This document shows positions 38,773-62,289 of a stretch of DNA of 64,000 nucleotides, in pieces (positions within the stretch are counted from its first letter, which is position 1; each line of letters opens with the position of its first letter). This stretch comes from Nonomuraea rubra (GTDB taxonomy: Bacteria; Actinomycetota; Actinomycetes; Streptosporangiales; Streptosporangiaceae). Under the pieces are notes generated by a model. That model saw only the letters and a list, made by a program, of their open reading frames with translations, searched no databases and was not told where the DNA came from. Where the stretch lies: NCBI RefSeq assembly GCF_014207985.1, contig NZ_JACHMI010000001.1, positions 10,399,001 to 10,463,000 of the forward strand. Direction: 5' to 3'. The position numbers were made by a program, and so were the translations under genes.

Positions 38773-39360
38773 CTAGCCGCTCCAGCCTGGCACGGCCATC
38801 CTGACGGTCAGAGCGTGCTCGACCAGCTGGATCAGGACGTTCTTCACCGAGTCCTTCTTGCGGGCGTCGAGCCGGACCATCGGGATGTGCGGCGACAGGG
38901 TGAGGGCGTCGCGCACCTCGGTGTCGCTGTGCGGGTAGGAGCCGTCCCAGCCGTTGATGCCCACCACGAACGGGAGCTGCGCCTCCTCGAAGTAGTCGAT
39001 GGCCGGGAAGCTGTCGGCCAGGCGGCGGGTGTCCACGAGGACGACCGCGCCGATGGCGCCCCGTACGAGGTCGTCCCACATGAACCAGAACCGGTGCTGC
39101 CCGGGGGTGCCGAACAGGTACAGGATCAGGTCACGGTCCAGGGACACGCGGCCGAAGTCCATGGCGACGGTCGTGGTCGACTTCAGCGGTGTCATGCCGA
39201 GGTCGTCGATCCCGGCGGAGGCGTCCGTCATGACGGCCTCCGTCGTCAACGGCATGATCTCCGACACCGCACCGACGAACGTCGTCTTGCCCACCCCGAA
39301 CCCGCCGGCGACGACGATCTTCGTCGACGTGAGGCCGGGGCTAGAGCCTGCGTAGTCCAC
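38773..39360 (-). CDS. cvnD: Conservon small GTPase CvnD, copy 1
   Basis: This Ras-like, MglA-related GTPase is the output subunit of a conservon, a membrane-associated complex with CvnA-C proposed to resemble G-protein receptor systems in Streptomyces. The 195-residue protein has P-loop GGFGVGKTTFVGAVSE, the switch region DFGRVSLDRDLILYLFGTPGQHRFWF and a NGWDG stretch near the base-specificity position. It starts at a GTG and overlaps cvnC by 20 bases. It differs from the second copy (52636-53223) at six residues by my alignment. It is the last gene of the operon. Confidence 0.93.
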   Translation of the reverse strand: MDYAGSSPGLTSTKIVVAGGFGVGKTTFVGAVSEIMPLTTEAVMTDASAGIDDLGMTPLKSTTTVAMDFGRVSLDRDLILYLFGTPGQHRFWFMWDDLVRGAIGAVVLVDTRRLADSFPAIDYFEEAQLPFVVGINGWDGSYPHSDTEVRDALTLSPHIPMVRLDARKKDSVKNVLIQLVEHALTVRMAVPGWSG

Positions 39361-39736
39361 TGAGCACCCTTTCCAGCAGGTTGACGTCCGGTCTACCCGC
39401 CTCGAGCTGCGGTTGATGCACCCGGACCAGGCCCTCCGCCGCCATGTCCGCGATCAGAACACGCACCACGCCGAGCGGGATCCGCAGCAGCGCCGACACC
39501 TCGGCCACCGATCTGACCTGCAGGCAGAGCTGGCTGATCGCCTTGTACTCGGGCGTGATGTGGGAGAACTCCCGGTGCTCGGCGGTCGCCGAGGACACCA
39601 GGGCCTCCATCGCCAGCTTGACCTTGGGCGCGGTCCGCCCGCCTGTCACGGCGTACGGCCGCACAGGGGAGGCGGGGTCAGAGCTGGCGGGCGGGGGCGG
39701 GGGCTCCCAGCCGCCGCTGTTCCACGAATTCGTCAC
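39341..39736 (-). CDS. cvnC: Conservon protein CvnC (DUF742), copy 1
   Basis: This 131-residue protein of the DUF742 family has a winged-helix-like fold and forms part of the conservon complex. A Pro-rich N-terminus (EPPPPPASSDPA) precedes VRPYAVTGGRTAPKVKLAME. The domain core is HITPEYKAISQLCLQVRSVAE, then LRIPLGVVRVLIADMAAEGL, and it ends NLLERVLSGLRRL. The GTG at 39736 is fixed by an in-frame TAG just upstream. It lies five bases after cvnB and overlaps cvnD by 20 bases. Confidence 0.92.
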   Translation of the reverse strand: MTNSWNSGGWEPPPPPASSDPASPVRPYAVTGGRTAPKVKLAMEALVSSATAEHREFSHITPEYKAISQLCLQVRSVAEVSALLRIPLGVVRVLIADMAAEGLVRVHQPQLEAGRPDVNLLERVLSGLRRL

Positions 39737-39741
39737 CTACA

Positions 39742-40164
39742 TCACCTGGTCTGGCTGGCACGCAGCTCGGCGCGCACAGCCGGAGTCAGCACCTGACCGG
39801 CGCGATCGACCATCAGCGTCATCTGATACGCCACCAGACCCATGTCACAGTCCGGCGCCGCCAGCACCGCCAAGCACGAACCATCACTGATCGACATGAT
39901 CAACATCAGACCGCGCTGCATCTCCACGATCGTCTGGTTGACCGCACCGCCTTCGAACACCCTGGCGGCGCCCTGCGTCAGCGAGACGAGGCCCGAGGCG
40001 ATGGCCGCGAGCTGATCCGCCCGATCAGCCGGAAAACCCGACGAGGCCGCCAGCGGCAGTCCGTCGGAGGAGACGACCACGGCGTGCGCGACTCCCGGAA
40101 CGGTGCTGACGAAGTCGGTGATTAACCAGTCCACCCCACGTGCCGCGTGGCTCAGGTCGTTCAT
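39742..40164 (-). CDS. cvnB: Conservon protein CvnB (roadblock/LC7), copy 1
   Basis: This 140-residue protein is a roadblock/LC7-fold regulator. Such proteins pair with MglA-type GTPases, here CvnD, as activator or scaffold. Diagnostic segments are VDWLITDFVSTVPGVAHAVV, LPLAASSGFPADRADQLAAI and IMSISDGSCLAVLAAPDCDM. It starts at an ATG at 40164, 67 bases after cvnA. The protein is identical to copy 2 (53623-54045) except for one residue (Ser against Ala near position 42), and its 3' half is identical at DNA level over nearly 200 bases. Confidence 0.94.
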   Translation of the reverse strand: MNDLSHAARGVDWLITDFVSTVPGVAHAVVVSSDGLPLAASSGFPADRADQLAAIASGLVSLTQGAARVFEGGAVNQTIVEMQRGLMLIMSISDGSCLAVLAAPDCDMGLVAYQMTLMVDRAGQVLTPAVRAELRASQTR

Positions 40165-40231
40165 GCGCTCTCCCTCGTCGATCGCATGAACGACAGTCGG
40201 CTGTACGTGACTGGCCGCTCACTGCACTCGC

Positions 40232-43090
40232 TCATGCGCCCTCATCCCTACTGTCACTCCTGGACCCGGACCCGTACGTCCGGCCCTCGCTGATGTCGTC
40301 ACGCGCGGCTCTGAAGCCTTGCTGGAAGCTCGACAACCGGCTGCGTACGCGCTCGGGCGAGACCGCCGGCATCGGTGCGACGCCCTTGGGCGCCGAGACG
40401 GTGTCCGCGGAACCGGGCACCAGGTTGGCCTTGGGCACCCGTTTGGGCAGGCCCGCCGCCGTCGCGCCGTCGCGGACCGGCTCGCGGACGGCCTCCGCCC
40501 TGCTCCAGCCCGCGTCCGCGTTGGCCGAGCTCCACGTGGCGTTGGCCTCGGCCGCGTTGTGGTCGAACCAGGCCGACTCCACCGAGGCGAAGATCGGCAG
40601 GTACTCGTCCCCCGCCGACGCCGGCTTGACGGCGGGCATGGGGCCGGTCGCGGCCGACTCGGTCTCGGGGAAGCTGTTGAAGCCGCCCTTGGCGGGCAGC
40701 GGCTGCTCGGGGCCGCGCGTCCACGGGCGGGTCTCGTCGGGCAGCACGCCGCGCTGGGGCAGGCCGCTCTCCCGCTGCGGCAACCCGCTGTCGCCGGTCA
40801 TGGGGCCGCGCGAGCTGACCCAGACGTCGTTGGAGGAGTCGGCCGACATCCAGCCGCCTGCCTCGGCGGGGAAGGCCGGGCCCGACGCCCAGGAGCCGCT
40901 GTTGCCGCCCTGCGGGACGGGCTCCGACGGGTACGACGGATACGACGGATGTCCGGGGCCGAGCTGGAACGACGAGGCGGGCCAGGGGCTGGCGGCCGCG
41001 GGCTGCGGCGTGTGGAAGGCCTCCCTGGAGGCGCCGCCCGCGGCGGGCGTGCTGACCGGGGCGGCCTGCGCGCCGAGCAGCGACTCGGGGATGAGCACCA
41101 TGGCGGTCAGGCCGCCGGAGCCGTGCGGGCGGAGCTGGACGCGGATGCCGTGCCGGTGCGCCAGCCTGGCGACCACGAACAGGCCCATGCGCCGCGAGAC
41201 GGACACGTCCACGGTGGGCGCGTCGGTCAGGCGCTCGTTGGACTGGGCCAGCTCCTCCGCGGTCATGCCGATGCCGGAGTCGCTGATGGACAGCATGATG
41301 CCGCCGCCGTCGATCCGGCTGCCGGAGACGGGGACGCGGGTCTCGCGGGGCGAGAACGACAGGGCGTTCTCGATCAGCTCGGCGAGCAGGTGGATGACGT
41401 CGTTGACGGCCTGGCCGGCGATGGAGACGCCTTCCGGCACCTCCAGCACGACCCGCTCGTAGTTCTCGACCTCCGACAGCGAGGCGCGGGCGACGTCCAC
41501 CAGCTTGACCGGCTGGCTCCAGCGGCGCGGCGGCTCCTGGCCGGCCAGGACCAGCAGGTTCTCGCTGTTGCGGCGCATGCGGGTGGCCAGGTGGTCCAGC
41601 TTGAACAGGTTACCCAGCCGCTGCTCGTCCTGCTCGCCCTGCTCCAGGCCGTCGATCAGGGTGATCTGCCGCTCCACCAGCGTCTGGCTGCGCCGCGACA
41701 GGTTCACGAACATCGCGTTGACGTTGGAGCGGAGCTTGGACTCCTCGCCGGCCAGGCGGACCGCTTCGCGGTGGACCTCGTCGAAGGCCCGGGCGACTTC
41801 ACCGATCTCGTCCCTGGAGTTGATCTCGATGGGCGGGACCCGCAGCTGGTCGGGGTCGACATCGGTGTTGCGGAGCTGGCGGACCAGGTCGGGCAGCGTG
41901 TGCCCGGCGATCTTCAGGGCGTCGCCGCGCAGGCGGCGCAGCGGGCGTACCAGCGAGCCGGCCATGAGGGCGGTGATCGCGAGGACCAGGACCAGCAGCG
42001 CGATCACGATGCCGATGTTGATCGCGGCGAGCTGCCGGTCGGCGCTGGCGACGTCGGCGCTTCGGGTGGCCACCTGCTCCGACAGCGTCTTCTGCACCTG
42101 GTGGTGCCGGTCGACGGTCTCGGAGATGGCGTCGAACCAGCTGTTGGTGTCGTTCACCGTCTTGTTGTCGAGCCGGCGCAGGGACTGGCCGTTGTTGTTC
42201 AGCAGCACGGCGCGGCTGATGTAGAGCTCGGCGAGGCCGATCTTGCGGCTGGCGACCGTGTTGTCGAAGTTCTGGCGCTGCGTGGCCGTGGCGACCGTGT
42301 TGAACGCGGCCCGTTCGCTCTCGCGGCGGGAGCGGGCGTCGAGGAAGGCGTTGAACTCCGGCTCCTCGAACTCGCCCCGGACCAGCGCGATCGTCAGAAG
42401 TGCGCGCTGCTTGGAGGCCTGCTCCTGCGCGCGGGCGATGGCGCGCAGCGCGGAGGACGTCGCGATGAGCTGCTCGTCCGTGGAGCCCTGTCCGAGCTCG
42501 TCGTAGATCTGCAGCATGTCGGCGATGGTCTCGGAGTACTTCTCCACGGTCGGCAGCGGCGGGAGCTCCGAGCCGACGACCGTCTGGCGCAGCGAGGCGA
42601 GCTGGCTGAGCCGGACCTGGATCCGGTCGAGTGTCCTGCGGCCCAGGTCCGACAGCGACGGCTCGACGGTCTTGGCGAGGGCCTGGGTGCGGGTGACGTT
42701 GGCGTCCACGATGCCCTGCTGGCTCTTCAGCTTCGTCTCGTCGCGCCTGCCCTCGGCGACGAAGCGGGCTGCCAGGTCACGCTCCATGCCGATGTCGCGG
42801 GCGAGCTCGCCGATCTGGGCGACCAGGGTTCCCGAGTCGCTGATGAGCTGGTACTGCTGCGCGCTGCTGATGGAGCTGGTGACGCGCAGCGCGCCCAGGA
42901 TCACGGCCACGATCGTGGGAATGGCGATGAGAGCGATGAGGCGGGTACGTACACGCCAGTTGCGCAGCGCGAACGAGCTGCCCGAGCGGGGCGGCCGCGG
43001 CGGCGCCGCACCGCCCGCCGCAGACTCTTCCGGAACGTCCGGAGCGCTAACACGACCGGAGCCGGTCGTTGTTGTCCTCACTGGTGGCAA
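40232..43090 (-). CDS. cvnA: Conservon sensor kinase-like CvnA with nitrate/nitrite-sensor-type domain, copy 1
   Basis: This is the membrane receptor of the conservon, 952 residues. A basic Pro-rich N-terminus precedes the first membrane helix (LIALIAIPTIVAVILGALRV). A long extracytoplasmic NIT-like helical sensor follows (about 75-330), then a second helix (VIALLVLVLAITALMAGSLV), a HAMP linker, and a conserved core through LGNLFKLDHLATRMRRNSE. The HATPase domain has LIENALSFSPRETRV and SISDSGIGMTAEEL. A Pro/Ser-rich C-terminal tail of about 270 residues follows. No canonical HisKA box is seen, as usual for CvnA. It starts at a GTG (43090) and diverges from the ABC importer at 43474. Confidence 0.92.
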   Translation of the reverse strand: MPPVRTTTTGSGRVSAPDVPEESAAGGAAPPRPPRSGSSFALRNWRVRTRLIALIAIPTIVAVILGALRVTSSISSAQQYQLISDSGTLVAQIGELARDIGMERDLAARFVAEGRRDETKLKSQQGIVDANVTRTQALAKTVEPSLSDLGRRTLDRIQVRLSQLASLRQTVVGSELPPLPTVEKYSETIADMLQIYDELGQGSTDEQLIATSSALRAIARAQEQASKQRALLTIALVRGEFEEPEFNAFLDARSRRESERAAFNTVATATQRQNFDNTVASRKIGLAELYISRAVLLNNNGQSLRRLDNKTVNDTNSWFDAISETVDRHHQVQKTLSEQVATRSADVASADRQLAAINIGIVIALLVLVLAITALMAGSLVRPLRRLRGDALKIAGHTLPDLVRQLRNTDVDPDQLRVPPIEINSRDEIGEVARAFDEVHREAVRLAGEESKLRSNVNAMFVNLSRRSQTLVERQITLIDGLEQGEQDEQRLGNLFKLDHLATRMRRNSENLLVLAGQEPPRRWSQPVKLVDVARASLSEVENYERVVLEVPEGVSIAGQAVNDVIHLLAELIENALSFSPRETRVPVSGSRIDGGGIMLSISDSGIGMTAEELAQSNERLTDAPTVDVSVSRRMGLFVVARLAHRHGIRVQLRPHGSGGLTAMVLIPESLLGAQAAPVSTPAAGGASREAFHTPQPAAASPWPASSFQLGPGHPSYPSYPSEPVPQGGNSGSWASGPAFPAEAGGWMSADSSNDVWVSSRGPMTGDSGLPQRESGLPQRGVLPDETRPWTRGPEQPLPAKGGFNSFPETESAATGPMPAVKPASAGDEYLPIFASVESAWFDHNAAEANATWSSANADAGWSRAEAVREPVRDGATAAGLPKRVPKANLVPGSADTVSAPKGVAPMPAVSPERVRSRLSSFQQGFRAARDDISEGRTYGSGSRSDSRDEGA

Positions 43091-43473
43091 CCTCTCGCCA
43101 TGGCCTGCTCTAGGGGGGTCTCAGCGGCTTCGTCACACGGACGATTGATCGCAGGCAAGTTCGAGGCCCAATTTGAGCACAAACCTCATACTTAGGCCAA
43201 CGTCTCGACGGTTTTCAACCGTTCCAACTCACACATTGTTCACGTGGCAAACCCGTGGACACGGAGCGCAACCAGCGCGTCAATCCGGACATACAGCCAT
43301 CAAACACCCCTTATAGCGCTATTTACATCTATAGCGGTGCACAGTCATATTTTGCAGATAAACGGCATAAACGTGGCATAGCGCTCCCGTTCGGATCTCC
43401 CCTCCGGTACGCTTCACGCCCGGCATCCTGTGCCGATCTCCAGAAGACTTCCCCCTGGTAGGAGAACCCCCCG
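43091..43473. promoter_or_regulatory. Divergent promoter region between cvnA (copy 1) and importer set 1
   Basis: These 383 gene-free bases include a locally AT-rich stretch (43290-43385) that should carry the promoters. It holds the palindrome ATAGCGCTAT at 43313-43322 and two further ATAGCG copies at 43331 and 43378. TATAGCGG recurs in the matching region of copy 2 (57306-57313). AGGAG lies nine bases before the binding-protein ATG. The ATAGCG repeats are candidate regulator contacts; no regulator is known. Confidence 0.45.
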
Positions 43474-44460
43474 ATGACACGCAAACTGCGCTGTCACGCC
43501 ATTGTTCTCGGCGTCACAGTCGCTCTCACCCTTGCCGGTTGCGGCAGCTCCGGCACCCCGGAGACCTCCGCCAACAGCAACGGCTTGGAGAAAACCACCA
43601 TCACGGTCGGGGCGCTCCCCATTCCGGACCCGGTATCCCTGTACATCGCGAACGCCAAGGGCTTCTTCAAGGAAGAGGGCCTGACGGTCACCCCGAAGAT
43701 CATCACCGGTGGTGCCGCGGCCATTCCGGCGATCGAGAACGGCTCGCTCGACATCTCTCAGACCAACTACGTCTCGACGTTCCTGGCGGTCAGCCAGGGC
43801 AAGAAGATCAAGCTGGTCGCGGACATGTACCAGGCCGCCCCGAACACCTTCAACATCATGGTTCCGAAGGACTCGCCGATCAAGACGGTGGCGGACCTCA
43901 AGGGCAAGACCGTCCTGGTCAACAACCTCAAGAACATCGCCACGCTCGCGACGACCTCGCAGCTCAAGGTGGCCGGCCTCGCGGAGACCGACGTCAAGTT
44001 CGTCGAGAAGCCGTTCCCCGAGATGGGCAACGCGATCGTCAGCGGCCAGGCCGACGCGGGCTGGATCACCGAGCCGTTCATCACGGCGAACCAGAGCCAG
44101 CACGGCTTCCGCAAGCTGGCCGACACGATGACCGGGCAGACCGCCGACCTGCCCATCGCCGGGTGGATGGCCACCGAGGAGTGGGCCTCGAAGTACCCGA
44201 AGACGCTGGCCGCCTTCCAGCGGGCCATCGCCAAGGCTCAGCAGCTCGCCTCCAGCGACCGCAAGGAGATCGAGGCCATGCTGCCGAAGTACACGAAGAT
44301 CGACGCCAAGACGGCCTCGGTGATCACGCTGGGCGCGTACCCCAGTGAGCTCAACGCCAACCGCCTGCAGAAGGTCGCCGACCTCATGCTCGAGTACGGC
44401 TACCTGGAGAACCCGATCGACGTGAAGTCGGTCATCGCAGCCCCCGCCGCAAGCGGATGA
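43474..44460 (+). CDS. NitT/TauT-like substrate-binding lipoprotein, importer set 1
   Basis: This receptor of an ABC importer belongs to the NMT1/SsuA-like class, which binds small nitrogen- or sulfur-containing or aromatic compounds. The 328-residue protein has a lipoprotein signal with LAGC (Cys23) and then GLEKTTITVGALPIPDPVSL. GFFKEEGLTVTPKII and the SPIKTVADLKGKTVLVNNLK stretch are class-typical. The ATG has AGGAG nine bases upstream. Its stop overlaps the permease start (ATGA). Two paralogues (47102 and 57465) share the GLEKT start of the mature domain. It is read divergently from conservon copy 1. Confidence 0.9.
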   Translation: MTRKLRCHAIVLGVTVALTLAGCGSSGTPETSANSNGLEKTTITVGALPIPDPVSLYIANAKGFFKEEGLTVTPKIITGGAAAIPAIENGSLDISQTNYVSTFLAVSQGKKIKLVADMYQAAPNTFNIMVPKDSPIKTVADLKGKTVLVNNLKNIATLATTSQLKVAGLAETDVKFVEKPFPEMGNAIVSGQADAGWITEPFITANQSQHGFRKLADTMTGQTADLPIAGWMATEEWASKYPKTLAAFQRAIAKAQQLASSDRKEIEAMLPKYTKIDAKTASVITLGAYPSELNANRLQKVADLMLEYGYLENPIDVKSVIAAPAASG

Positions 44461-45233
44461 CCGGTGCTCGACTGCTCCGCGGCGCCATCGGCGCCGCGGG
44501 GTTCCTCGTGGTGGCAGAGCTGGTCATCCGCTTCGGCGTCAGCGGCCGGCTCGACTTCCCCGCCCCCTCGGCCATCCTGCTCGAAGCCGTGCGCCTGCCG
44601 GCCGACCCCGAGTTCATGGCCGGTGTCGGCACGACCCTCACGAACTGGGTGTTCGGCCTGCTCATCGCGACCCTCATCGCCGTGCCGGTGGGCGTGCTGC
44701 TCGGCGCGCTGAGCCCGCTGGAGCGGGCGGTCCGGCCGCTGCTCGAGTTCATGCGGCCGATCCCCTCGGTGGCGATCATCCCGCTGGCGATCCTGCTGAT
44801 CCCGGTGGACGAGCTGATGAAGATCTCGGTCATCGTGTACGCCTCGGTCTGGCCGATCCTCATCAACACCCTGTACGGCATGCACGACGTCGACCCTCTC
44901 GCCAAGGAGTCGCTGCGCAGCTTCGGCTTCGGCCCGCTGGCCGTGCTGACCAGGGTGAGCCTGCCCAGCGCCGCCCCGTTCGTGGCGACGGGCGTCAGGA
45001 TCGCCGCGGGCATCGCGCTCGTCCTGGCGGTCAGCGCCGAGCTGCTGGCCGGCGGCTTCAACGGGATCGGCGTCTTCGTGACGGTCGCGGGCAGCGGCAA
45101 CCGTACGGACCTCATGATGGCGGCCACGTTCTGGGCCGGCGTCATCGGCGTGCTCGCCAACGTGCTGCTGATGGCCGGCGAGCGCCGCCTCTTCCACTGG
45201 CACCGGATGCGGACGGGGGCCACGGAATCGTGA
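44457..45233 (+). CDS. ABC importer permease A, set 1
   Basis: This SsuC/TauC-like permease of 258 residues has about six membrane segments. The EAA loop LAKESLRSFGFGPLAVLTRV and the preceding LRPIPS-type segment (FMRPIPSVAIIPLAILLIP) mark it as the first of a paired permease type used three times in this region. The ATG overlaps the binding-protein stop, and its own stop overlaps the next permease (GTGA), so stoichiometric production is likely. It probably forms a heterodimer with permease B. The ATPase partner is not in this operon; the gene at 61519 is the visible candidate. Confidence 0.9.
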   Translation: MTGARLLRGAIGAAGFLVVAELVIRFGVSGRLDFPAPSAILLEAVRLPADPEFMAGVGTTLTNWVFGLLIATLIAVPVGVLLGALSPLERAVRPLLEFMRPIPSVAIIPLAILLIPVDELMKISVIVYASVWPILINTLYGMHDVDPLAKESLRSFGFGPLAVLTRVSLPSAAPFVATGVRIAAGIALVLAVSAELLAGGFNGIGVFVTVAGSGNRTDLMMAATFWAGVIGVLANVLLMAGERRLFHWHRMRTGATES

Positions 45234-46033
45234 AGAACCTCCCCAGATTCCTGGTGATCCCCGCCGTGCTCCTCGTGTGGGAGCTGGTCACGCGGGCGAT
45301 CGGGGATCCCGATTTCCCGCCGCCCACGACGATCGTCGCCCGCATGTACGAGCTGTGGTTCTCCGGCCCTGTCAGCCGGGTGTTCCTCACCGACGACGCG
45401 ATCGCCAACATCCTGCCGAGCCTCGGGCGCATGTTCGGCGGCTGGGTCCTGGCGGCGCTGATCGGGATCCTGGCGGGCATGCTGCTCGGGCGCTCGCGCG
45501 CGGCGACCGACTTCGTGGACCCGCTGATCGAGTTCGGCCGCGCGCTCCCGCCGCCGCTGCTGATCCCGGTGTTCCTCGTGGTCATGGCCGGGCTGTCGAG
45601 CGAGACCGTGAGCGGCGTGCTGATCACCCAGCTCGCGACGATCGTGTTCGGCGTGATCTGGCCGGTGCTGCTCAACTCCATCGACGGCGTCAGGGCCGTG
45701 GATCGCACCTACACGGAGACGGCGACGGTCTTCAACCTGTCCAAGCCGCAGTACGTGCGCGTGGTGCTGCTCCCCGCCGCCTCGCCGAAGATCTTCGCCG
45801 GGCTGCGGCTGAGCCTGTCGCTGGCGTTGATCATGATGGTGATCAGCGAGCTGCTCGGCGGCTCCGACGGCATCGGGTACCAGCTCCTGCAGGCCCAGCG
45901 CAGCTTCGACGGCGCGGGGGTGTGGGCGGCGATCGCGCTGCTCGGCATCCTCGGCTACGTCGTGAACTCCCTGTTCGTGCTGGCCGAACGGCGCGTGCTC
46001 GTCTGGCACCGCCAGGCCACCCGCAACCCGTGA
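45230..46033 (+). CDS. ABC importer permease B, set 1
   Basis: This is the second permease of set 1 (267 residues). Helices include FLVIPAVLLVWELVTRAIG. The signature PDFPPPTTIVARMYELWFSGP recurs in the B-type permeases of sets 2 and 3. The EAA loop is in TATVFNLSKPQYVRVVLLPA and is followed by SPKIFAGLRLSLSLALIMMV. It has a GTG start inside the permease A stop. The methyltransferase gene follows after 15 bases and is probably co-transcribed. Confidence 0.9.
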   Translation: MKNLPRFLVIPAVLLVWELVTRAIGDPDFPPPTTIVARMYELWFSGPVSRVFLTDDAIANILPSLGRMFGGWVLAALIGILAGMLLGRSRAATDFVDPLIEFGRALPPPLLIPVFLVVMAGLSSETVSGVLITQLATIVFGVIWPVLLNSIDGVRAVDRTYTETATVFNLSKPQYVRVVLLPAASPKIFAGLRLSLSLALIMMVISELLGGSDGIGYQLLQAQRSFDGAGVWAAIALLGILGYVVNSLFVLAERRVLVWHRQATRNP

Positions 46034-53622: not shown

Positions 53623-54045
53623 TCACCTGGTCTGGCTGGCACGCAGCTCGGCGCGCACAGCCGGAGTCAGCACCTGACCGGCGCGATCGACCATCAGCGT
53701 CATCTGATACGCCACCAGACCCATGTCACAGTCCGGCGCCGCCAGCACCGCCAAGCACGAACCATCACTGATCGACATGATCAACATCAGACCGCGCTGC
53801 ATCTCCACGATCGTCTGATTGACCGCACCACCCTCGAACACCCTGGCCGCACCCTGCGTCAGGCTCACCAGACCCGACGCGATCGCCGCGAGCTGATCCG
53901 CCCGATCAGCCGGAAAACCCGCCGAAGCCGCCAGCGGCAGCCCGTCGGACGAGACGACCACCGCGTGCGCCACGCCGGGGACCGTGCTGACGAAGTCCGT
54001 GATCAGCCAGTCGACGCCGCGTGCCGCGTGGCTGAGGTCGTTCAT
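53623..54045 (-). CDS. cvnB: Conservon protein CvnB (roadblock/LC7), copy 2
   Basis: This roadblock/LC7 partner of CvnD has 140 residues and differs from copy 1 at a single residue (AASAGFPAD against AASSGFPAD). Its DNA is identical to copy 1 over about 190 bases of the 3' half and diverges mainly at third positions in the 5' half. The start overlaps the cvnA stop by four bases, tighter than the 67-base gap of copy 1. Confidence 0.94.
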   Translation of the reverse strand: MNDLSHAARGVDWLITDFVSTVPGVAHAVVVSSDGLPLAASAGFPADRADQLAAIASGLVSLTQGAARVFEGGAVNQTIVEMQRGLMLIMSISDGSCLAVLAAPDCDMGLVAYQMTLMVDRAGQVLTPAVRAELRASQTR

Positions 54046-56951
54046 ACGCCGCCCTCCTCTCTCTCACTCTGTTTCTGGCCGGAAGGCGGGAGCGCCCTGC
54101 CCTCGCTGATGTCGTCGCGGGCCGCCCTGAAGCCCTGCTGGAAGCTGGACAGCCGGTTGCGCACCCGGTCGGGGGAGACCGAGGGCAGCGGCATCACCCC
54201 TTGCGGGGAGGCGGAGGCGTCGGCCGAGCCGGGCACCAGGTTGGCCTTGGGCACCCGTTTGGGCAGGCCCGCCGCCGTCGCGCCGTCACGTACCGGTTCC
54301 ACCACTGCCTCCGCCGCGCTCCAGCCCGCGTCCGACTTCGAGGAGCCCCAGCTCGCGCCGTTCGCGTCGCGGCCGAACCAGGCCGACTCCACGGCGGCGA
54401 AGATCGGCAGGTAGTCGTCGCCGGCGGACGCGGGCGGTGCCGCCGGCATGGGGCTGGCGCCTGGCTCGGACCCGGTGTCCTGGAAGTCGAACCCGGGTCG
54501 CTGCGGCGGGTTGGTGTCCTGGCTCCAGCCGCCTGGCGGCGGCGCGGGGACGGGTCGCTTGGGCAGGCCGCGCTCGCCGTTCCAGGCCGGGCCGCGGGGC
54601 GGGCTCCAGACGTCGCCGCTCTGGAAGCCGCTGCGCGGCTCGGGCGGCCAGGCGGACGGATCCGGCTGCCAGGGCGAGCCCGCGCTCCCCCAGTTGCCGC
54701 CGGCCTCCGGGTTCGACGGGAACGACGGGTGTCCCGGGCCCATCTGGAAAGTCTGCTGCGGCCAGTCGGTGGCCGGTGGGGCGGGATGCGGCCCCGAGTA
54801 CGGCTCGCCGCCCGGCCCGCCGGGACCACCCGCCGCCGCGCCCGCGAAGGCCGGCGGCTGATCGCCGAACGACGAAGGCTGGTCACCGGAGAAGGACGGG
54901 GGCTGGTTCTCGGAGAAGGACGGGGGCTGGTTGCCGGAGAACGACGGCATCCCGGCGAAGTTCGGGGCCTGGGAGCCCAGCATGTTCTCCGGGATCAGCA
55001 CCATCGCGGTCAGCCCGCCTGAGGCGTGCGGGCGGAGCTGGACGCGGATGCCGTGCCGGTGCGCCAGCCTGGCGACCACGAACAGGCCCATGCGCCGCGA
55101 GACGGACACGTCCACGCTGGGCGCCTCCATCAGGCGCTCGTTGGCCTGGACCAGCTCCTCCTGCGTCATGCCGATGCCGGAGTCGGTGATCGACAGCATC
55201 ACCCCGCCGCCGTCGATCCGGCTGCCGGACACCGTCACCCTGGTCTCGCGCGGGGAGAACGACAGCGCGTTCTCGACCAGCTCGGCGAGCAGGTGGATGA
55301 CGTCGTTGACGGCCTGCCCCGCCACCGACACCCCGTCGGGGACCTGGAGCACGACCCGCTCGTAGCTCTCGACCTCCGACAGCGACGCCCTGGCCACGTC
55401 GACCAGCTTGACCGGCTGGCTCCAGCGGCGCGGCGGGTCCTGGCCGGCCAGGACCAGCAGGTTCTCGCTGTTGCGGCGCATGCGGGTGGCCAGGTGGTCC
55501 AGCTTGAACAGGTTGCCCAGCCGCTGCTCGTCCTGCTCGCCCTGCTCCAGGCCGTCGATCAGGGTGATCTGCCGCTCCACCAGCGTCTGGCTGCGCCGCG
55601 ACAGGTTCACGAACATCGCGTTGACGTTGGAGCGCAGCCTGGACTCCTCGCCGGCCAGGCGGACCGCCTCGCGGTGGACCTCGTCGAAGGCCCGCGCCAC
55701 CTCGCCGATCTCGTCGTGAGTGTCCACGCCTATCGGCACGACCGGGCCGACCGTGCCGTCACCGCTCTCGCGGAGCTGCTGCACGGTCTCCGGCAGGCGC
55801 TGCCCGGCGATGTCGAGCGCCTCGCGGCGCAGCCGGCGCAGCGGCCTGATGAGCGAGCGGGCGATGAGCGAGATGATCGCGATCACCACGATCAGCAGGA
55901 TCAGGATGAGCACGCCGGAGATCAGCGCCGAGCGGTTGGCGGCCTCCTCCAGGGCGCGGGCGCGCAGGATGACGGAGGAGGACAGCTCCTTCTCCACGGT
56001 CCGCAGCGCGTCGATCTTGCCGGTGCTGACCTCGAACCAGGTGGCCACGTCCCGGTCCGGCCGTACGCCGATGCTCAGCTCCTTGCCCTCGGCCGACTGC
56101 GCCATGGCGCGCAGCCGGAACAGGTCGGTCTGGTCGACGTCCCTGCCCACGACGGTGTTGCGGTAGAGCTCGAGCTGGTCGAGGTCGGCCAGGACGCCGA
56201 ACAGCGTCTCCTCGCTCTCCTCGCGCGACTTGGCGTCGGTGAGCGCGTCGAGCTCGCCGCTGTCGAACCCCCGCTTGTCCAGCGCGCTGGCCAGGATGCC
56301 GCGCTGCTTGGAGGCCTGCTCCTTGGCCCGCGAGATGGCGGCCATGGCGCTGGCGCTGTCGGCCACCTGGTCGTCCACCGCCACCTGGCCGACCTGGTCG
56401 TGGAACTGCAGCAGCCGCGCGATGATCTGCGAGTACTTCTGGATCATCGGCAGCGGCTGGATCTTGCCGTTGACGGCCGTCTCGCGCAGCGTCGGGATCT
56501 CCTCCAGCCGGCGCAGCACCGGCCGTACGGCCTCGGCGTGGGTCTCGCTGAGCGCGAGCGCGCGCTGCTTGGCGTCCTCGATGAGGTTGTTCACCTGGCT
56601 GTGGGTGGTGCCGAGCTGCCCCTCGCGGTCTTTCGGCCGCCCCTGGGCGATGAAGAGCGCGGTCTCGTCACGTTCGAAGGACAGCTCGTGCGTGACGGCT
56701 CCGAGCTGCTCGCTGAGCTCGGCGACCTCTCTGAGGGTCTGGTACGTGTTGGCGTCACTGAGTGAGGTGACGACGTTCAGCCCGCCCAGGCCCACGGCGA
56801 CGGCCGTCGGAACGACGATCAGCGCGATGAGGCGCGACCGCACGTGCCAGTTGCCCAATCCGAATCGCTTTGAAGGCGGATTGGGCAGCCGTCGCTTCTG
56901 ATGGCCGTGCGGCTCGCGGTCAGCGGAAGCTTCAGCGCTCTGCGTTCTCAC
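54042..56951 (-). CDS. cvnA: Conservon sensor kinase-like CvnA with divergent sensor, copy 2
   Basis: This is the second conservon receptor, 969 residues from the GTG at 56951. Architecture matches copy 1: N-terminal basic tail, helix LIALIVVPTAVAVGLGGLNV, a NIT-like helical sensor, helix LILILLIVVIAIISLIARSL, HAMP, ATPase domain with LVENALSFSPRETRV and SITDSGIGMTQEEL, and a Pro-rich tail that includes short NQPPSFSE-like repeats. From about the HAMP region through the ATPase domain it is almost identical to copy 1, while the sensor halves share little. The frame is open to 57068, but comparison with copy 1 and its GAGAGG supports 56951. Confidence 0.9.
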   Translation of the reverse strand: MRTQSAEASADREPHGHQKRRLPNPPSKRFGLGNWHVRSRLIALIVVPTAVAVGLGGLNVVTSLSDANTYQTLREVAELSEQLGAVTHELSFERDETALFIAQGRPKDREGQLGTTHSQVNNLIEDAKQRALALSETHAEAVRPVLRRLEEIPTLRETAVNGKIQPLPMIQKYSQIIARLLQFHDQVGQVAVDDQVADSASAMAAISRAKEQASKQRGILASALDKRGFDSGELDALTDAKSREESEETLFGVLADLDQLELYRNTVVGRDVDQTDLFRLRAMAQSAEGKELSIGVRPDRDVATWFEVSTGKIDALRTVEKELSSSVILRARALEEAANRSALISGVLILILLIVVIAIISLIARSLIRPLRRLRREALDIAGQRLPETVQQLRESGDGTVGPVVPIGVDTHDEIGEVARAFDEVHREAVRLAGEESRLRSNVNAMFVNLSRRSQTLVERQITLIDGLEQGEQDEQRLGNLFKLDHLATRMRRNSENLLVLAGQDPPRRWSQPVKLVDVARASLSEVESYERVVLQVPDGVSVAGQAVNDVIHLLAELVENALSFSPRETRVTVSGSRIDGGGVMLSITDSGIGMTQEELVQANERLMEAPSVDVSVSRRMGLFVVARLAHRHGIRVQLRPHASGGLTAMVLIPENMLGSQAPNFAGMPSFSGNQPPSFSENQPPSFSGDQPSSFGDQPPAFAGAAAGGPGGPGGEPYSGPHPAPPATDWPQQTFQMGPGHPSFPSNPEAGGNWGSAGSPWQPDPSAWPPEPRSGFQSGDVWSPPRGPAWNGERGLPKRPVPAPPPGGWSQDTNPPQRPGFDFQDTGSEPGASPMPAAPPASAGDDYLPIFAAVESAWFGRDANGASWGSSKSDAGWSAAEAVVEPVRDGATAAGLPKRVPKANLVPGSADASASPQGVMPLPSVSPDRVRNRLSSFQQGFRAARDDISEGRALPPSGQKQSEREEGGV

Positions 56952-57464
56952 TTGCCTTCGCAACCTCTCGCCCTTGAGGGAATTCTCGGTGACATGCGGG
57001 GTTTCACGTCGGGCAATTGCGTCCATCGAGATAAGCGCCATTTGAGCACACGGGTCGACCAGGGCCAACCACTATTAGTGCCCCGATGAGGTGTTTATCC
57101 CTAGATGTCCAGAAAATCCGACAGAATCGGTAAGTGGCCTTCTACCAGGGGAAATGCGGCAACAACTGATCGTTCCGCGGGCCCCATCCTGACTCGCAGA
57201 AAAGATCGAATGGTCTGCCACTCCAGCAACCGATGTCCCCCGAGTCACCCCCTTTCCCAAACCGGACAAACACCAGCTTTCTTGCAGGTCGTCAAATTTT
57301 CACGATATAGCGGCAAACGGACATTGCAACCACAAGTGATATCTTCGCGATAATGACCACCCATTTGGTGCTACGGTCAATCCCTGTTGTGCGTCAGGCA
57401 CACAGCCCCCGGGAGCAGAAGCCACCCGGTCCCCCCCTGGCTCCACCCGAAGGGAGTCCCTGAC
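56952..57464. promoter_or_regulatory. Divergent promoter region between cvnA (copy 2) and importer set 3
   Basis: These 513 bases hold no gene and are locally AT-rich around 57280-57360. A TTGCAA at 57324 and GATAAT at 57349 (19-base gap) could serve set 3. TATAGCGG at 57306-57313 also occurs upstream of set 1 (43330-43337). AGGGAG lies eight bases before the binding-protein ATG. The arrangement mirrors the region at 43091-43473. Confidence 0.4.
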
Positions 57465-58475
57465 ATGAGGCTTGGCCGTTCCGCCAGAGCCGCCATCATC
57501 GGGTTCGCTTTGACGCTCGGCGCCGCGGCGTGCAGCACGGGCACCGAAACGACCGCCAGCGCGCCGCCCTCCGCCGCCGCCGCCGGCGCAGGCGCCGGTC
57601 TGGAGAAGACGAAGCTCAAGATCGCAACCCTGCCCGCCATCGACAGTGCCGCCATCTACGTCGCCATCGACCAGGGGTTGTTCGAGCAGGAGGGCCTGGA
57701 CGTCACCCCCGAGGTCGTCCAGGCGGCTCCCGAGGCCATCCCCATGATGGTGAAGGGCGAGATCGACGCCATGTTCGGCAACTACGTGTCGATGTTCGCC
57801 GCCCATGACAAGCAGGCGCTGAGACTGCGCATCCTGGCCGAGGGCTCTCGCGCGGCCCCCGACTCGCTGAGCATCATGGCCCTGCCCGACTCCCCCATCA
57901 AGACGCCGAAGGACCTGGAAGGCAAGACGATCAACGTCAACGTCCTGCACAACTTCCAGGAGCTGGCGCTCACCCAGGTCCTCAAGGCCAACAACGTCGA
58001 TCCGGCCACCATCAAGTACGTCCAGGTGACGTTCCAGAACATCATGCCCTCGTGGAAGGGCGGCCAGATCGACGCCGCCTACCTGGGCGAGCCCATGGTC
58101 ACCGCCGCCACCTCCAGCATGGGCGCCCGCAAGATCCTCGACCCGGCCTCCGGCCCCGCCGCCGAGTTCCCCATCTCCGGCTACGTCAGCACGCAGGAGT
58201 GGTACGACAAGAACCCGAAGACGGCGGCCGCCTTCCAGCGGGCCATCCACAACGCGGCCAAGCTCATGGAGAACAACCGCGAGGTGGTGGCCAAGGTGCT
58301 GCCCAACTTCACGCAGATCGACGCCGCCACCGCGGCCACCGTGGTCTTCCCGTACTTCTCCAGCAGCGACAACCCGGTCCGCCTCCAGCGGGTGGCCGAC
58401 TGGATGTGGGAAGCCAAGTGGCTGACGAAGGAGATCGACGTCAAGTCCCTCATGTCGCCCACCACGTCCGGGTGA
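57465..58475 (+). CDS. NitT/TauT-like substrate-binding lipoprotein, importer set 3
   Basis: This is the third paralogous receptor, 336 residues. The lipobox is GAAAC (Cys23), followed by an Ala/Ser linker and GLEKTKLKIATLPAIDSAAI, then GLFEQEGLDVTPEVV. SPIKTPKDLEGKTINVNVLH matches the other two. The ATG at 57465 follows AGGGAG at eight bases; the open frame from 57387 adds non-conserved residues. The stop overlaps the permease start (GTGA). It diverges from conservon copy 2 just as set 1 diverges from copy 1. Confidence 0.9.
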   Translation: MRLGRSARAAIIGFALTLGAAACSTGTETTASAPPSAAAAGAGAGLEKTKLKIATLPAIDSAAIYVAIDQGLFEQEGLDVTPEVVQAAPEAIPMMVKGEIDAMFGNYVSMFAAHDKQALRLRILAEGSRAAPDSLSIMALPDSPIKTPKDLEGKTINVNVLHNFQELALTQVLKANNVDPATIKYVQVTFQNIMPSWKGGQIDAAYLGEPMVTAATSSMGARKILDPASGPAAEFPISGYVSTQEWYDKNPKTAAAFQRAIHNAAKLMENNREVVAKVLPNFTQIDAATAATVVFPYFSSSDNPVRLQRVADWMWEAKWLTKEIDVKSLMSPTTSG

Positions 58476-59287
58476 GCGCTCAGACCCTGTCCCGTCCCCG
58501 CCCGGCGTCCTCCGCATCCCGCTGGTACCGCCGGGCGGCCGGGGCTCTCGCCTTCGCCGTCCTCATCGAGCTGGCCAGCAGGACCGGGCTGGCAGACCCC
58601 GAGTTCCTGCCGCCCGCCTCCGAGATCGTCTGGCGGGCCGGCGCGCTGCTGCTCGATCCCGGCTTCGGCGCGCACGCCCTGACCAGCCTGCTCGCCTGGG
58701 CGATCGGGTTGTGCGTGGCGGCCCTGCTGGCCGTGCCGCTCGGCCTGCTGCTCGGCAGCGTGCCGATCATCGACGCGGCCATGCGCTCGGTCGTGGAGTT
58801 CCTGCGGCCGATCCCCTCCGTGGCGCTGATCCCGCTGGTCGCCCTGGTGATCGGCACGGGGCTGCAGCACCGGATCGCGCTGGTGGTCTACGCCTCGCTG
58901 TGGCCCATCCTCTACAACACGATGTACGGCCTGCGCGGCGTCGACCCCCTGGCCAAGGAGTCGCTGCGCGCCTACGGCTTCGGCCCCCTGTCGGTGCTGC
59001 TGCGCGTCTCGCTGCCGTCGTCGGCGCCCTTCATCACCACCGGCATCCGGCTGGCCGCCGGCGTGGCGCTCATCCTGACCGTCAGCACGGAGATCGTGGC
59101 CGGTCGCGGCGAGGGCGTCGGCGTGTTCATCTTCTTCGCCGGCATCGCCGTGCCCGCGCGCATGACCGACATCCTGGCCGGGGTGTTCTGGGTCGGCATG
59201 TTCGGCGTCGTGGTGAACGCGCTGCTGGTGGCCGCCGAGCGGCGGGCGTTCCGCTGGCACCACGCGCAGCTGGGAGAGCGCTCATGA
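58472..59287 (+). CDS. ABC importer permease A, set 3
   Basis: This 271-residue permease is paralogous to those at 44457 and 48082. It carries FLRPIPSVALIPLVALVIG and the EAA loop LAKESLRAYGFGPLSVLLRV. An N-terminal stretch of about 25 polar residues (SAQTLSRPRPASSASRWYRR) precedes the first helix. The GTG overlaps the binding-protein stop, and the stop overlaps the next ATG. Confidence 0.9.
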   Translation: MSAQTLSRPRPASSASRWYRRAAGALAFAVLIELASRTGLADPEFLPPASEIVWRAGALLLDPGFGAHALTSLLAWAIGLCVAALLAVPLGLLLGSVPIIDAAMRSVVEFLRPIPSVALIPLVALVIGTGLQHRIALVVYASLWPILYNTMYGLRGVDPLAKESLRAYGFGPLSVLLRVSLPSSAPFITTGIRLAAGVALILTVSTEIVAGRGEGVGVFIFFAGIAVPARMTDILAGVFWVGMFGVVVNALLVAAERRAFRWHHAQLGERS

Positions 59288-60087
59288 GGAGGCGGGGGAT
59301 GCGGACCGCCCTGTTCCGGACGCTGGTGCTGGTGGTGCTCGTCCTGCTCTGGGAGGCCGCCACCCGGCTGGCGGCCAATCCGTTCTTCCCTCCGCCGAGC
59401 ACGATCGTGAGCCGGATGCACGCGATGTGGTTCTCCGGCCCCGTCACCCGAGGGTTCCTCACGGACCTGGCCGTCGGCAACATCCTGCCGAGCCTCGGCA
59501 GGATGGCGCTCGGGTTCGCGGGGGGCGCGCTGGCCGGGGTCGTGCTCGGGCTGGCGGTGGGGTTGTCGGCGCGGGTGTACGACTATCTCGACGGGGTGCT
59601 GCAGTTCCTGCGCGCCATCCCGCCGCCCGCGCTGGTGACCGTCTTCCTGGTGCTGTTCGGGTTCGGGCTGCGGATGCAGCTCGCGTTCATCATGTTCAGC
59701 ATCGTGTGGCCGGTGCTGCTCAACACCGCCGACGGGGCCCGCTCCGTGGAGCCGCTGCACCTGGACACCTGCCAGGCGTTCCGGCTGTCGCGCGGCGAGC
59801 GGCTCCTCCGCGTGGTGCTGCCCTCCGCGCTGCCCAAGATGTTCGCCGGGCTGCGGCTGGCCCTGTCGCTCTCCCTGATCGTCATGGTCTTCTCCGAGCT
59901 GCTGCCCGGCACCACGAACGGCATCGGCTTCCAGATCACCGACGCGTACTCGACCTTCGACCTGCCCGCCATGTGGGCCGGAATCGTGCTGCTCGGCGTG
60001 CTGGGTTACCTGCTCAACGAGCTGTTCCTGGTCGTCGAGCGCCGCGTGCTCGGCTGGCACCACGCCGCCCAGCAACTGGTCGACTAG
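59284..60087 (+). CDS. ABC importer permease B, set 3
   Basis: This 267-residue B-type permease has the shared FFPPPSTIVSRMHAMWFSGP and the loop LDTCQAFRLSRGERLLRVVL, then LPKMFAGLRLALSLSLIVMV. The ATG overlaps permease A (ATGA). It is followed after 40 bases by the flavin monooxygenase and then the ATPase gene, so set 3 is the only importer set with an ATPase on the same strand and close by. Confidence 0.9.
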   Translation: MRRRGMRTALFRTLVLVVLVLLWEAATRLAANPFFPPPSTIVSRMHAMWFSGPVTRGFLTDLAVGNILPSLGRMALGFAGGALAGVVLGLAVGLSARVYDYLDGVLQFLRAIPPPALVTVFLVLFGFGLRMQLAFIMFSIVWPVLLNTADGARSVEPLHLDTCQAFRLSRGERLLRVVLPSALPKMFAGLRLALSLSLIVMVFSELLPGTTNGIGFQITDAYSTFDLPAMWAGIVLLGVLGYLLNELFLVVERRVLGWHHAAQQLVD

Positions 60088-60127
60088 AGTCCCCGCCACG
60101 GGGACGTCGTCGCGTCTTGGGGGCGCC

Positions 60128-61360
60128 ATGAGGACGATGGTCGTTGGCGGGGGCATCGGCGGGCTCAGCACGGCGCTGAGCCTGCACGCGGCCGGGCTCG
60201 GCTGCGTGGTGGTGGAGGCGGCGCGCACGTTGCGGCCGCTCGGGGTGGGCATCAACATGCAGCCGCACGCCGTACGCGAGCTGACCGAGCTGGGGCTCGG
60301 CCCGGTGCTGGCGGACCTGGGCGTGGAGACGAGCTTCATGAGCGTCGCCGACCGGCACGGCAACATCATCATGGCCTTACCCCGCGGCCGGTCGGCCGGC
60401 TACCGCTGGCCCCAGTACAGCGTGCACCGGGGCGAGCTGCAGATGGCGCTGCTGGCGGCGGTCGAGGAGCGGATCGGCCCGGTGCGCACCGGGGTCGCGT
60501 TCGAGGGCTTCGAGCAGGACGGCGACGGCGTGCTCATCACGCTCCGCCAGGGCGGGCGCGTCCTACGGGAGCGGGTGGACGTGCTGGTCGGGGCCGACGG
60601 GGTGCAGTCCTCCGTACGGGCGCGGCTGTGGCCGTACGGCGATCCGCTGCGGTGGGGCGGGATCAGGATGTGGCGCGGGGTGGCGGAGAGCGACCCGGTG
60701 CTCGACGGTGCCACGGTGCTGGCCGGCGGCTCGAACTCCGCCGCGAAATTCGTGACTTATCACATCTCGGCGCGCAATCCGCGGCTGCTCAATTGGGTGG
60801 CCGAGGTAAAGGTGGCCGAGCCGGGGATCGTTCCGGACGCCGATTGGTCCCGCGAGGGCAGCCACGCCGACGTGTCCAGACATTTCGCATCATGGAAGTA
60901 TCCGCTGGTTGACATCCCGGCATTACTCGCCGCCACGAAGCGGATACTCGAATACCCGATGGTCGACCGCGACCCCCTCCCCCGCTGGGGCGAGGGCCGG
61001 GTGACCCTGCTCGGCGACGCCGCCCACCCCATGTACCCCGTCGGCTCGAACGGCGGCTCCCAGGCCGTGCTCGACGCCCGGTTCCTGGCCCGCTGCCTGG
61101 CCACGTACGACGACCCGGCCGCGGCCCTGGCGGCGTACGAGGCGGAGCGGCGCCCGCCCACGTCGGCGCTGGTGCTCGCGCACCGGTCGCTGCCCATCGA
61201 GCGAACGATCACGCTGGTCACCGAGCGCGCGCCGGACGGTTTCACCCACATCGGCGAGGTGCTCACCGCCGGCGAGCTGGCCGCCATGGAGGCCGCCCAG
61301 CGCGGCCTCTCCGACGCCGACGTGCGGGCGCTGAACGAAAGGGAGTCGTGGAGTGTCTGA
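60128..61360 (+). CDS. FAD-dependent monooxygenase (PhzS/UbiH-like)
   Basis: This is a class A flavoprotein hydroxylase of 410 residues. The dinucleotide-binding motif is MVVGGGIGGLSTALSL, the DG motif is LVGADGVQSSVRARLW, and the GD motif is TLLGDAAHPMYPVGSNGG. These three mark NAD(P)H-dependent hydroxylases of aromatic rings; the closest resemblance by eye is to the PhzS-like flavin-dependent oxidoreductases. It lies 40 bases after importer set 3 and 158 bases before the ATPase gene. It probably hydroxylates or decarboxylates the imported compound. The substrate is unknown. Confidence 0.9.
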   Translation: MRTMVVGGGIGGLSTALSLHAAGLGCVVVEAARTLRPLGVGINMQPHAVRELTELGLGPVLADLGVETSFMSVADRHGNIIMALPRGRSAGYRWPQYSVHRGELQMALLAAVEERIGPVRTGVAFEGFEQDGDGVLITLRQGGRVLRERVDVLVGADGVQSSVRARLWPYGDPLRWGGIRMWRGVAESDPVLDGATVLAGGSNSAAKFVTYHISARNPRLLNWVAEVKVAEPGIVPDADWSREGSHADVSRHFASWKYPLVDIPALLAATKRILEYPMVDRDPLPRWGEGRVTLLGDAAHPMYPVGSNGGSQAVLDARFLARCLATYDDPAAALAAYEAERRPPTSALVLAHRSLPIERTITLVTERAPDGFTHIGEVLTAGELAAMEAAQRGLSDADVRALNERESWSV

Positions 61361-61518
61361 GCCTGTGACCCCCATGGCAGCCAGGAACGTGCGAGAGTAA
61401 GATCGCGCCAGATTAGGTTTACCTGACTGACATGTCCAGCATTTACCGCTCCGCTAGAGTCAATTCAGACTCCGAAAGAGTTGCCGTGCTGACCGCGGTC
61501 TCGCCCCCTAGGAATTCC

Positions 61519-62289
61519 ATGCTCGAGATAGACAACCTTTCCCACGTGTACGGCGGCGGTACTCCCAACGCACACCACGCCATCGAAGGACTCAACCTGA
61601 GCGTCGCAGCCGGCGAGCTGCTCTGCATCGTGGGGCCGTCGGGCTGCGGGAAGTCCACGCTGCTCCGCTCCATCGCCGGCCTGATCCAGCCGACGGGCGG
61701 GCAGGTCAGGGTGGAGGGCAACCTCGTCCGCCAGACGCCGGACAACCTCGCCGTGGTCTTCCAGGACTACAGCCGCTCCCTGTTCCCCTGGATGTCGGTC
61801 GCCGACAACGTGGCCCTGCCGCTGCGCCGCAGGAACATGGACAAGAAGCAGCGCCGCGAGGCCGCCGCCGAGGCGCTGGAGTCCGTGGGCCTGGCCAACG
61901 CGGGCCGCAAGTACCCGTTCCAGCTCTCCGGCGGCATGCAGCAGCGCGTCGCGATCGCGCGGGCGCTGGCGTACCGGCCGACGCTGATGCTCATGGACGA
62001 GCCGTTCGGGTCGGTGGACGCGCAGACCAGGGAGGACCTGGAGGACCTGGTGCTCAAGGTCCGCGGCCACCACCAGATGACGATCGTGCTCATCACCCAC
62101 GACATCGACGAGAGCGTCTACGTCGGTGACCGCGTGGTCGTGCTGTCCAAGGCGCCCGCGCACGTGGTGGGCGACCTGAAGGTGGACCTGCCCGGGCCGC
62201 GCGACCAGATCTCGACGCGCGAGCACCCCGACTTCGTGCACCTGCGCGCCGAGGTGGGGCGGCTCGTCCGCGGCCACGCCACCGTCTGA
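61519..62289 (+). CDS. NitT/TauT-type ABC ATP-binding protein, probably shared by three importers
   Basis: This 256-residue ATPase is of the SsuB/TauB/NrtD type. Walker A is [17 protein letters not shown], the Q-loop [20 protein letters not shown], the signature [15 protein letters not shown], Walker [13 protein letters not shown] and the switch [20 protein letters not shown]. All catalytic residues are present. The ATG at 61519 gives [11 protein letters not shown], the normal first strand; GTG 61483 and ATG 61432 would add up to 29 residues. It is the only ATPase of this class in the window, while three binding-protein/permease sets lie upstream. Confidence 0.92.

Follow-up and report, generated by a model that had tools for sequence, protein, structure and literature searches.

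A tandem array of conservons and uptake genes between ffh and glnD in Nonomuraea rubra, possibly a modular system for nitrogen-nutrient sensing and uptake

We analysed a window of 64,000 nucleotides from Nonomuraea rubra (assembly GCF_014207985.1, contig NZ_JACHMI010000001.1, positions 10,399,001 to 10,463,000), with the focus on its conservons, the cvnABCD operons for a membrane sensor (CvnA), a roadblock/LC7 protein (CvnB), a DUF742 protein (CvnC) and a small GTPase (CvnD). As stated in the initial annotation, the window contains two full operons, cvn1 (38773-43081) and cvn2 (52636-56951), both on the minus strand; Pfam matches, DUF742 and the identity of cvn2 to cvn1 confirm them. Each cvnA stands head-to-head with a gene for an NMT1-type solute-binding protein (SBP) and two permease genes (43474-46033 and 57387-60087), and a third such set lies between them (47096-49754). 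Genes for a methyltransferase, a CN_hydrolase, an aldehyde dehydrogenase (ALDH), an FAD monooxygenase and a DUF3598_N protein, also named earlier, are found among the modules by profile matches. The window holds only the left part of a conservon array, which continues past it in a genome of 12.88 Mb. Five tandem cvnABCD conservons span about 64 kb and are flanked by ffh on one side and glnD-glnK-amtB on the other. The features of the window are listed in Table 1.

From the left, the array consists of ffh, cvn1, the SBP1 set, the O-methyltransferase gene, the SBP2 set, the CN_hydrolase, DUF3598 and ALDH genes and cvn2. The SBP3 set, the monooxygenase gene, a single NitT-type ATPase gene and several further genes lead to cvn3. 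It is followed by ALDH3, a glycosyltransferase gene, a TetR gene, a polyamine-type importer (potA-potC-potB-potD), APH- and SIS-domain genes and cvn4. Next come a betaine/choline-type ATP-binding cassette (ABC) importer (opu) with choline dehydrogenase, a TetR gene, an ABC-2 exporter and an F420-family gene, and the right end is formed by cvn5, glnD, glnK and amtB. The membership of cvn3 to cvn5 is based on homology, DUF742 matches and Pfam matches of CvnA. DUF742, the marker of cvnC, has 11 copies in the genome, five of them in the array (10438344, 10452207, 10468639, 10483050 and 10497539). All five conservons have uptake or nitrogen genes as neighbours: NitT/TauT-type importers (three sets with one ATPase gene) face two of them, one lies next to the polyamine-type block, one faces the betaine/choline-type importer and one lies behind amtB-glnK-glnD. 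No terminator-like site was found between glnD and cvn5, a weak negative since shuffled sequences gave only 0.6. Within 10 kb of a DUF742 gene lie 3 of the 15 NMT1 genes of the genome, compared with 0.21 expected; the three are neighbours and not independent.

The sensors of the array have divergent ectodomains and a conserved kinase core. Between cvn1 and cvn2 the ectodomain is 36% identical, the DHp+CA core 92%, CvnB 99%, CvnC 91% and CvnD 97%, and the ectodomains of different units are 26-36% identical (six pairs compared). A NIT domain is matched by Pfam in 11 of 11 CvnA proteins of the genome. The ectodomain model of CvnA1 is all-helical (26 sequences, mean predicted local distance difference test score 88.8). 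Its only structural matches below an E of 0.001 are two chains of the NIT sensor NasR (4akk), the best with a template modelling score of 0.73, a root-mean-square deviation of 9.1 and an E of 4e-9. The ectodomain fold is the same as in NasR, while the NIT domain of CvnA is predicted outside the membrane on a histidine-kinase-like protein.

This NasR-type fold speaks for an alternative in which all NIT sensors detect nitrate/nitrite or the general nitrogen status, the conservons co-adjust many nitrogen sources and the neighbouring genes are targets rather than sources of the signal. The position of the array next to amtB-glnK-glnD, with cvn5 behind glnD on the same strand, agrees with it. The ectodomains, however, are as divergent as given above and distinct by type across genera, which is more than a common ligand needs. 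Furthermore, the available part of PMC13343842 describes NIT domains without nitrate binding and raises the possibility that CvnA of the NIT type respond to ligands besides nitrate. We regard this alternative as improbable.

Table 1. Features of the array within the window, with positions counted from its first nucleotide
Feature	Position	Strand	Basis and remarks
ffh (SRP54), left array border	37165..38715	-	Pfam SRP54/SRP54_N/SRP_SPB; border recurs in relatives
cvnD1, small GTPase	38773..39360	-	Pfam ATP_bind_1
cvnC1	39341..39736	-	DUF742
cvnB1	39742..40164	-	roadblock/LC7
cvnA1, NIT-HAMP-HATPase sensor	40232..43081	-	Pfam; GTG start set by start context common to cvnA2 and cvnA3
cvnA1/SBP1 divergent intergenic region	43082..43473	no strand	conserved blocks, 22-sequence alignment
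SBP1, NMT1/NitT-TauT-type solute-binding protein	43474..44460	+	
permease 1a	44457..45233	+	BPD_transp_1
permease 1b	45230..46033	+	BPD_transp_1
O-methyltransferase	46049..47053	+	Methyltransf_2
SBP2, NMT1-type binding protein	47096..48085	+	
permease 2a, start approximate	48214..48966	+	gene call and permease profile; NCBIfam SaoP, NtrB and SsuC permease models below cut-off
permease 2b, start approximate	48933..49754	+	BPD_transp_1
carbon-nitrogen hydrolase (nitrilase superfamily)	49758..50729	-	CN_hydrolase
DUF3598_N protein	50726..51163	-	
aldehyde dehydrogenase	51168..52547	-	
cvnD2	52636..53223	-	97% identical to CvnD1
cvnC2	53204..53626	-	DUF742
cvnB2	53623..54045	-	99% identical to CvnB1
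cvnA2, NIT-HAMP-HATPase	54042..56951	-	Pfam; ectodomain 36% and DHp+CA core 92% identical to CvnA1
SBP3, NMT1-type binding protein, faces cvnA2	57387..58475	+	
permease 3a	58472..59287	+	gene call and permease profile match
permease 3b	59299..60087	+	BPD_transp_1
flavin monooxygenase	60128..61360	+	NCBIfam PRK07538 above cut-off; nearest solved chains 2rgj/3c96
NitT/TauT-type ABC ATPase, sole one in array for three SBP/permease sets	61432..62289	+	

The pairing of conservon and importer, which the initial annotation had proposed to look for in relatives, is found there. SBP1 is 95% identical to a Nonomuraea thailandensis protein and occurs in many Nonomuraea. Among 29 SBP1-like loci drawn from the genome collection, 27 have a cvnA within the fetched stretch. 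It faces SBP1 directly in 24 and another NitT set, with SBP1 behind that set, in three (L028, L031, L038); the two loci without cvnA come from Plantactinospora and Bacteroides. The arrays of 11 of the 24 listed genus-mates were read, picked because the array sat on one contig (the G007 piece starts inside the array, with its ffh side missing, and the G023 piece stops in glnD). Every one of the 11 has retained cvn3 and cvn5, together with the pot block and cvn4 plus opu. Variable features are the left part of the array, choline dehydrogenase and the TetR/exporter genes. A whole inversion of cvn4 together with the betaine-importer block, with the facing arrangement kept, is observed in G003 (L072-L073, about L072:16800 to L073:9000).

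Across a family sample of 120 genomes, some of them the same strains as SBP1-like loci, ffh was matched in 116 and glnD in 78, both on one contig in 60. The gap between the two genes is at least 9.5 kb in 34 of these 60, all with a GlnD at least 77% identical to that of N. rubra (one of the 34, G139, looks like the wrap of a circular record). The other 26 genomes (GlnD below 77%) have gaps of no more than 9.1 kb, which are below 0.41 kb in 18 of them. We read 29 intervals of other genera, 24 long and five short, all with gaps above about 4 kb; nine of the 34 long ones were left out. Conservons are present in 24 of 24 long intervals and in none of the five short ones (G142, G114, G130, G042, G154). 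With the N. rubra genome and the 11 genus-mates included, this gives 36 of 41 intervals, which were chosen and not random. From this pattern of gap length and conservon content, the adjacency of ffh and glnD is probably ancestral and the array probably arose inside this family. Counted by homology thresholds to the N. rubra proteins, all 36 arrays hold at least two conservons. NitT binding-protein genes are found in 30, one to four in each, always with exactly one NitT ATPase gene (30/30), and six arrays have neither gene. The glnD-side conservon of G051 (L132, about 4921-5826) appears to be interrupted by an open reading frame of 301 residues between cvnD and cvnC, which, judged by a motif, presumably resembles an insertion-sequence transposase.

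We clustered 123 ectodomains, taken from CvnA frames longer than 500 residues in the 36 arrays, with shorter or missed frames left out. The resulting types follow the neighbouring module, in counts that share descent and so are not independent. The glnD-side type lies behind glnD in 33 of 33 cases, and the NitT-side types are beside a NitT importer in 16/16, 12/13 and 8/8. The pot type is next to pot-block genes in 23 of 24, and the opu type faces opu genes in 17 of 24. Five ectodomains are singletons, two of them behind glnD. Of the 36 arrays, 23 have both the pot-type sensor and potD, 11 have neither, and G101 and G096 have one without the other, in opposite directions; the opu-type sensor is present in 17 of 17 arrays with opuC and in seven without it. 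We consider it somewhat probable that the region belongs to a modular array for the sensing and uptake of nitrogen nutrients, whose unit would be a NIT-type conservon beside the uptake genes for one class of nitrogen compounds.

A different explanation is positional accretion. The ffh-glnD interval would simply tolerate insertion, conservons would have been duplicated and importers added between them, and the link would be one of descent and not of function. The minimal arrays, with two conservons and no importers, and the opu-type sensors without opu (7 of 24) are in its favour. The agreement of sensor type with the neighbouring module across genera is against it, and the G003 inversion is neutral between accretion and a nitrogen-nutrient array. 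We consider accretion unlikely, also in view of the binding-protein genes and the control genomes described below.

Several arrays hold a binding-protein gene without its transporter. PotD is encoded in 24 arrays, without potB in four, and opuC in 17, without opuB in two; the reverse is found in none. In three genera (G077, G157, G066) the block ALDH3-TetR-potA-potC-potB-APH-SIS is located elsewhere in the genome, without potD. The sole PotD ortholog found in these genomes (74, 72 and 64% identical, next matches 28-35%) lies in the array just upstream of cvnA3, with a glycosyltransferase gene in between in G066. The three layouts may go back to one event. Accretion would not predict potD as the gene left in the array with its transporter elsewhere. 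In G104 potD lies with the rest of the pot block elsewhere in the genome, and none is left in the array. G096 carries a PotD-like gene (54%) in its array, and no PotB match in that genome exceeds 33%. G140 and G103 have an OpuC-type gene facing an opu-type sensor, with best OpuB matches of 32 and 34%. Since binding-protein genes are kept in the array without the transporter, the gene content favours the binding protein, rather than the transporter, as the part that would matter to the conservon.

Of 62 facing pairs of CvnA and NitT-type SBP, 54 were kept after dropping eight duplicate SBPs. Compared by distance, the ectodomain correlates with the SBP at r 0.92 and the core at 0.26; the partial r of ectodomain and SBP given the core is 0.92 (p 0.0005, 2000 permutations). 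What this between-type signal shows is an ectodomain-and-importer cassette and not contact. A recent duplication of cvn1/cvn2 was rejected, as the four-fold sites of CvnA are only 58-79% identical between the copies. With this divergence, the near-identity of CvnB and CvnD is to be seen as constraint, perhaps with conversion. Four-fold-site identity of cvn1 and cvn2 within a genome is 0.78 for the core and 0.75 for CvnB; for orthologs between genomes it is 0.72, and 0.66 and 0.62 (7, 6 and 8 genomes). This suggests that the output part may have been homogenised by conversion, a view that is partly supported.

A number of observations weigh against a functional array. G061, G116, G143 and G104 have two tandem conservons only and no importer, opu genes are missing next to seven of the 24 opu-type sensors, and in G048, G138, G107, G067 and G051 the NitT set beside cvnA is co-directional with it. 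Synteny counts are not independent events. The correlation of ectodomain and SBP rests mostly on contrasts between types, and as the ectodomain is encoded at the importer-side end of cvnA, co-transfer of a linked cassette alone could yield it. Within the SBP1 type (22 pairs, 18 with all neighbours and four without Ffh), there is no preferential link to the SBP: the partial r given Ffh is 0.37 for SBP1, compared with higher values for the permeases (0.63 and 0.52) and the O-methyltransferase (0.71), a result also in favour of accretion. The partial r for SBP1 given all other neighbours is still 0.41 (p 0.002). The amino-acid identity of the cvn1/cvn2 core is the same in within-genome (0.904) and between-genome (0.902) comparisons, and CvnB is strongly conserved between species too. 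Finally, GlnR-like boxes, sought by consensus, were not found in the cvnA1/SBP1 or cvnA2/SBP3 intergenic regions.

The same GlnR consensus has matches before amtB, in the cvnA4/opu intergenic region and one in the TetR/glycosyltransferase region, and upstream of amtB (L012:11711-11753) three sites have one mismatch each. A shared GlnR regulon of the two facing NitT units is not supported, with no boxes in either intergenic region. Three cvnA genes share the element GAGAGGTTGC immediately ahead of their GTG start: cvnA1 (window about 43096), cvnA2 (window about 56969) and cvnA3 (about L010:18828). A block TGTGCTCAAAT is found further upstream of cvnA1 and cvnA2. The cvnA4/opu intergenic region contains the palindromic GTTACCCGATTGGAAC (about L011:12858). 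No importer-side motif was found in the divergent regions by eye and string search, which was not a systematic motif search. An Rfam scan of the window gave no match at the gathering threshold. Apart from the array, positions 20001-26000 of the window have a strong negative GC skew (-0.20 to -0.36) and fewer well-scoring genes than the rest.

Conservons elsewhere served as a comparison. Five genomes outside the family (20 loci, 22 conservons) gave a permease match at 2 of 20 loci and an ABC ATPase match at 6 of 20. None of the 22 conservons has a binding protein in the fetched stretch, with four modelled families searched, so that other SBP families would be missed; this control speaks against accretion. 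The N. rubra genome has six conservons outside the array, at five loci. One of the six is opposite an SBP_bac_5 gene that adjoins an ABC importer of the Opp type. At this locus (L106, G000:C1:1734001-1754000, 9947-13583) cvnA is head-to-head with the SBP_bac_5 gene, and a second SBP_bac_5 gene, two permeases, ABC ATPase matches and a hydantoinase-family gene are nearby. It is possibly a further conservon-importer pair. For the other conservons outside the array the profiles matched no transporter part, and none of nine neighbour proteins scanned is a transporter.

The predicted substrates differ between modules. All parts of a NitT/TauT importer (SsuA/TauA/NrtA type) are present, namely the NMT1-type binding protein, two BPD permeases and the family ATPase. 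Unlike such importers, the arrays share a single ATPase gene among their one to four binding-protein genes (three sets in N. rubra). Known substrates of the family are nitrate, taurine and sulfonate; SBP1 to SBP3 score below the NCBIfam cut-off for every model listed. Four NCBIfam models, those of potA (by 1 bit only), proV, betA and amt, pass their cut-off; for the protein assigned to potA an aminophosphonate ATPase model ranks first by E-value, yet below its own cut-off. The names PotD, OpuC, ALDH3 and the sugar-related ones denote the nearest NCBIfam models, below cut-off, the one for ALDH3 being an aminobutyraldehyde dehydrogenase (partial protein).

The initial annotation had suggested that these genes could form a single system for sensing, taking up and modifying a family of small molecules; in such a system the O-methyltransferase and the flavin monooxygenase would be tailoring enzymes. 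Both genes recur beside NitT sets in relatives, and the phenazine-specific methyltransferase 2ip2 is one among many PDB matches of the O-methyltransferase. The chains 2rgj/3c96, nearest to the monooxygenase, we take to be PhzS. A link of the two enzymes to aromatic heterocycles is possible. They come and go between species without fixed order, as do other interleaved enzymes of the left part, and the other modules are nearest to polyamine, choline/betaine and ammonium uptake. Because the modules point to different nitrogen compounds and the enzymes vary, a single small-molecule system is not supported, and we consider it very improbable.

For the nitrogen-nutrient array we propose the following mechanism. 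The CvnA ectodomain, with its all-helical NIT fold, would detect the substrate of the neighbouring importer, either free or carried by the SBP. The signal would pass from CvnA via CvnB/C to the GTPase CvnD, whose output would adjust how strongly the neighbouring importer and the first catabolic enzyme are expressed. Since CvnB and CvnD are nearly identical, cvn1 and cvn2 probably feed the same or overlapping effectors, so that several inputs would lead to a single kind of output, in the vicinity of the PII/ammonium operon. It is possible that the solute-binding proteins are inputs to the array sensors. A bolder and rather doubtful version makes the solute-binding lipoproteins dedicated extracellular input subunits of NIT-type conservons. 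Such a binding-protein-gated G-protein pathway would gain new specificities by swapping an ectodomain and importer cassette onto the conserved kinase-GTPase output. LuxP-LuxQ, ChvE-VirA and TorT-TorS are sensor kinases that depend on a binding protein, and the proposed logic is the same: a solute-binding protein presents the ligand to a membrane sensor kinase. In the array the output would be a Ras-like GTPase module and not a response regulator.

Gene order and domains are those of described conservons (PMC8510531, PMC13343842), and 11 per genome is within the range given in the available part of PMC13343842. According to the same part of that paper, CvnE/CvnF accessories go with CvnA without a NIT domain. 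The array CvnA are of the NIT type, and no CvnE/CvnF-like gene lies behind cvn1 or cvn2; cvnD1 is followed by ffh and cvnD2 by an ALDH gene, not by GAF or P450 genes. The array differs from described conservons in that five stand together in tandem, all of them neighboured by uptake or nitrogen genes. The earlier remark that no such conservon-importer pairing is known to be described holds for the matches listed, judged by title or abstract start; two of the papers listed, PMC4316618 and PMC3123327, contain both 'conservon' and 'ABC transporter'. The pairing is likewise not mentioned in the available parts of PMC8510531 and PMC13343842, the main text of the latter using 'transporter' 0 times.

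The sensory input side of conservons is largely unexplored, as stated in the available part of PMC13343842. The array places several distinct sensor types beside importers with guessable substrates (polyamines, choline/betaine, ammonium and NitT/TauT compounds). This neighbourhood suggests what conservon sensors detect and narrows the question of their input to a short list of candidates. Should the sensors prove to be gated by binding proteins, the latter would be extracellular counterparts of the CvnF accessory proteins. The gap concerning NIT ligands, left by PMC13343842 in its available part, is the question that the array addresses in Nonomuraea and related soil actinobacteria.

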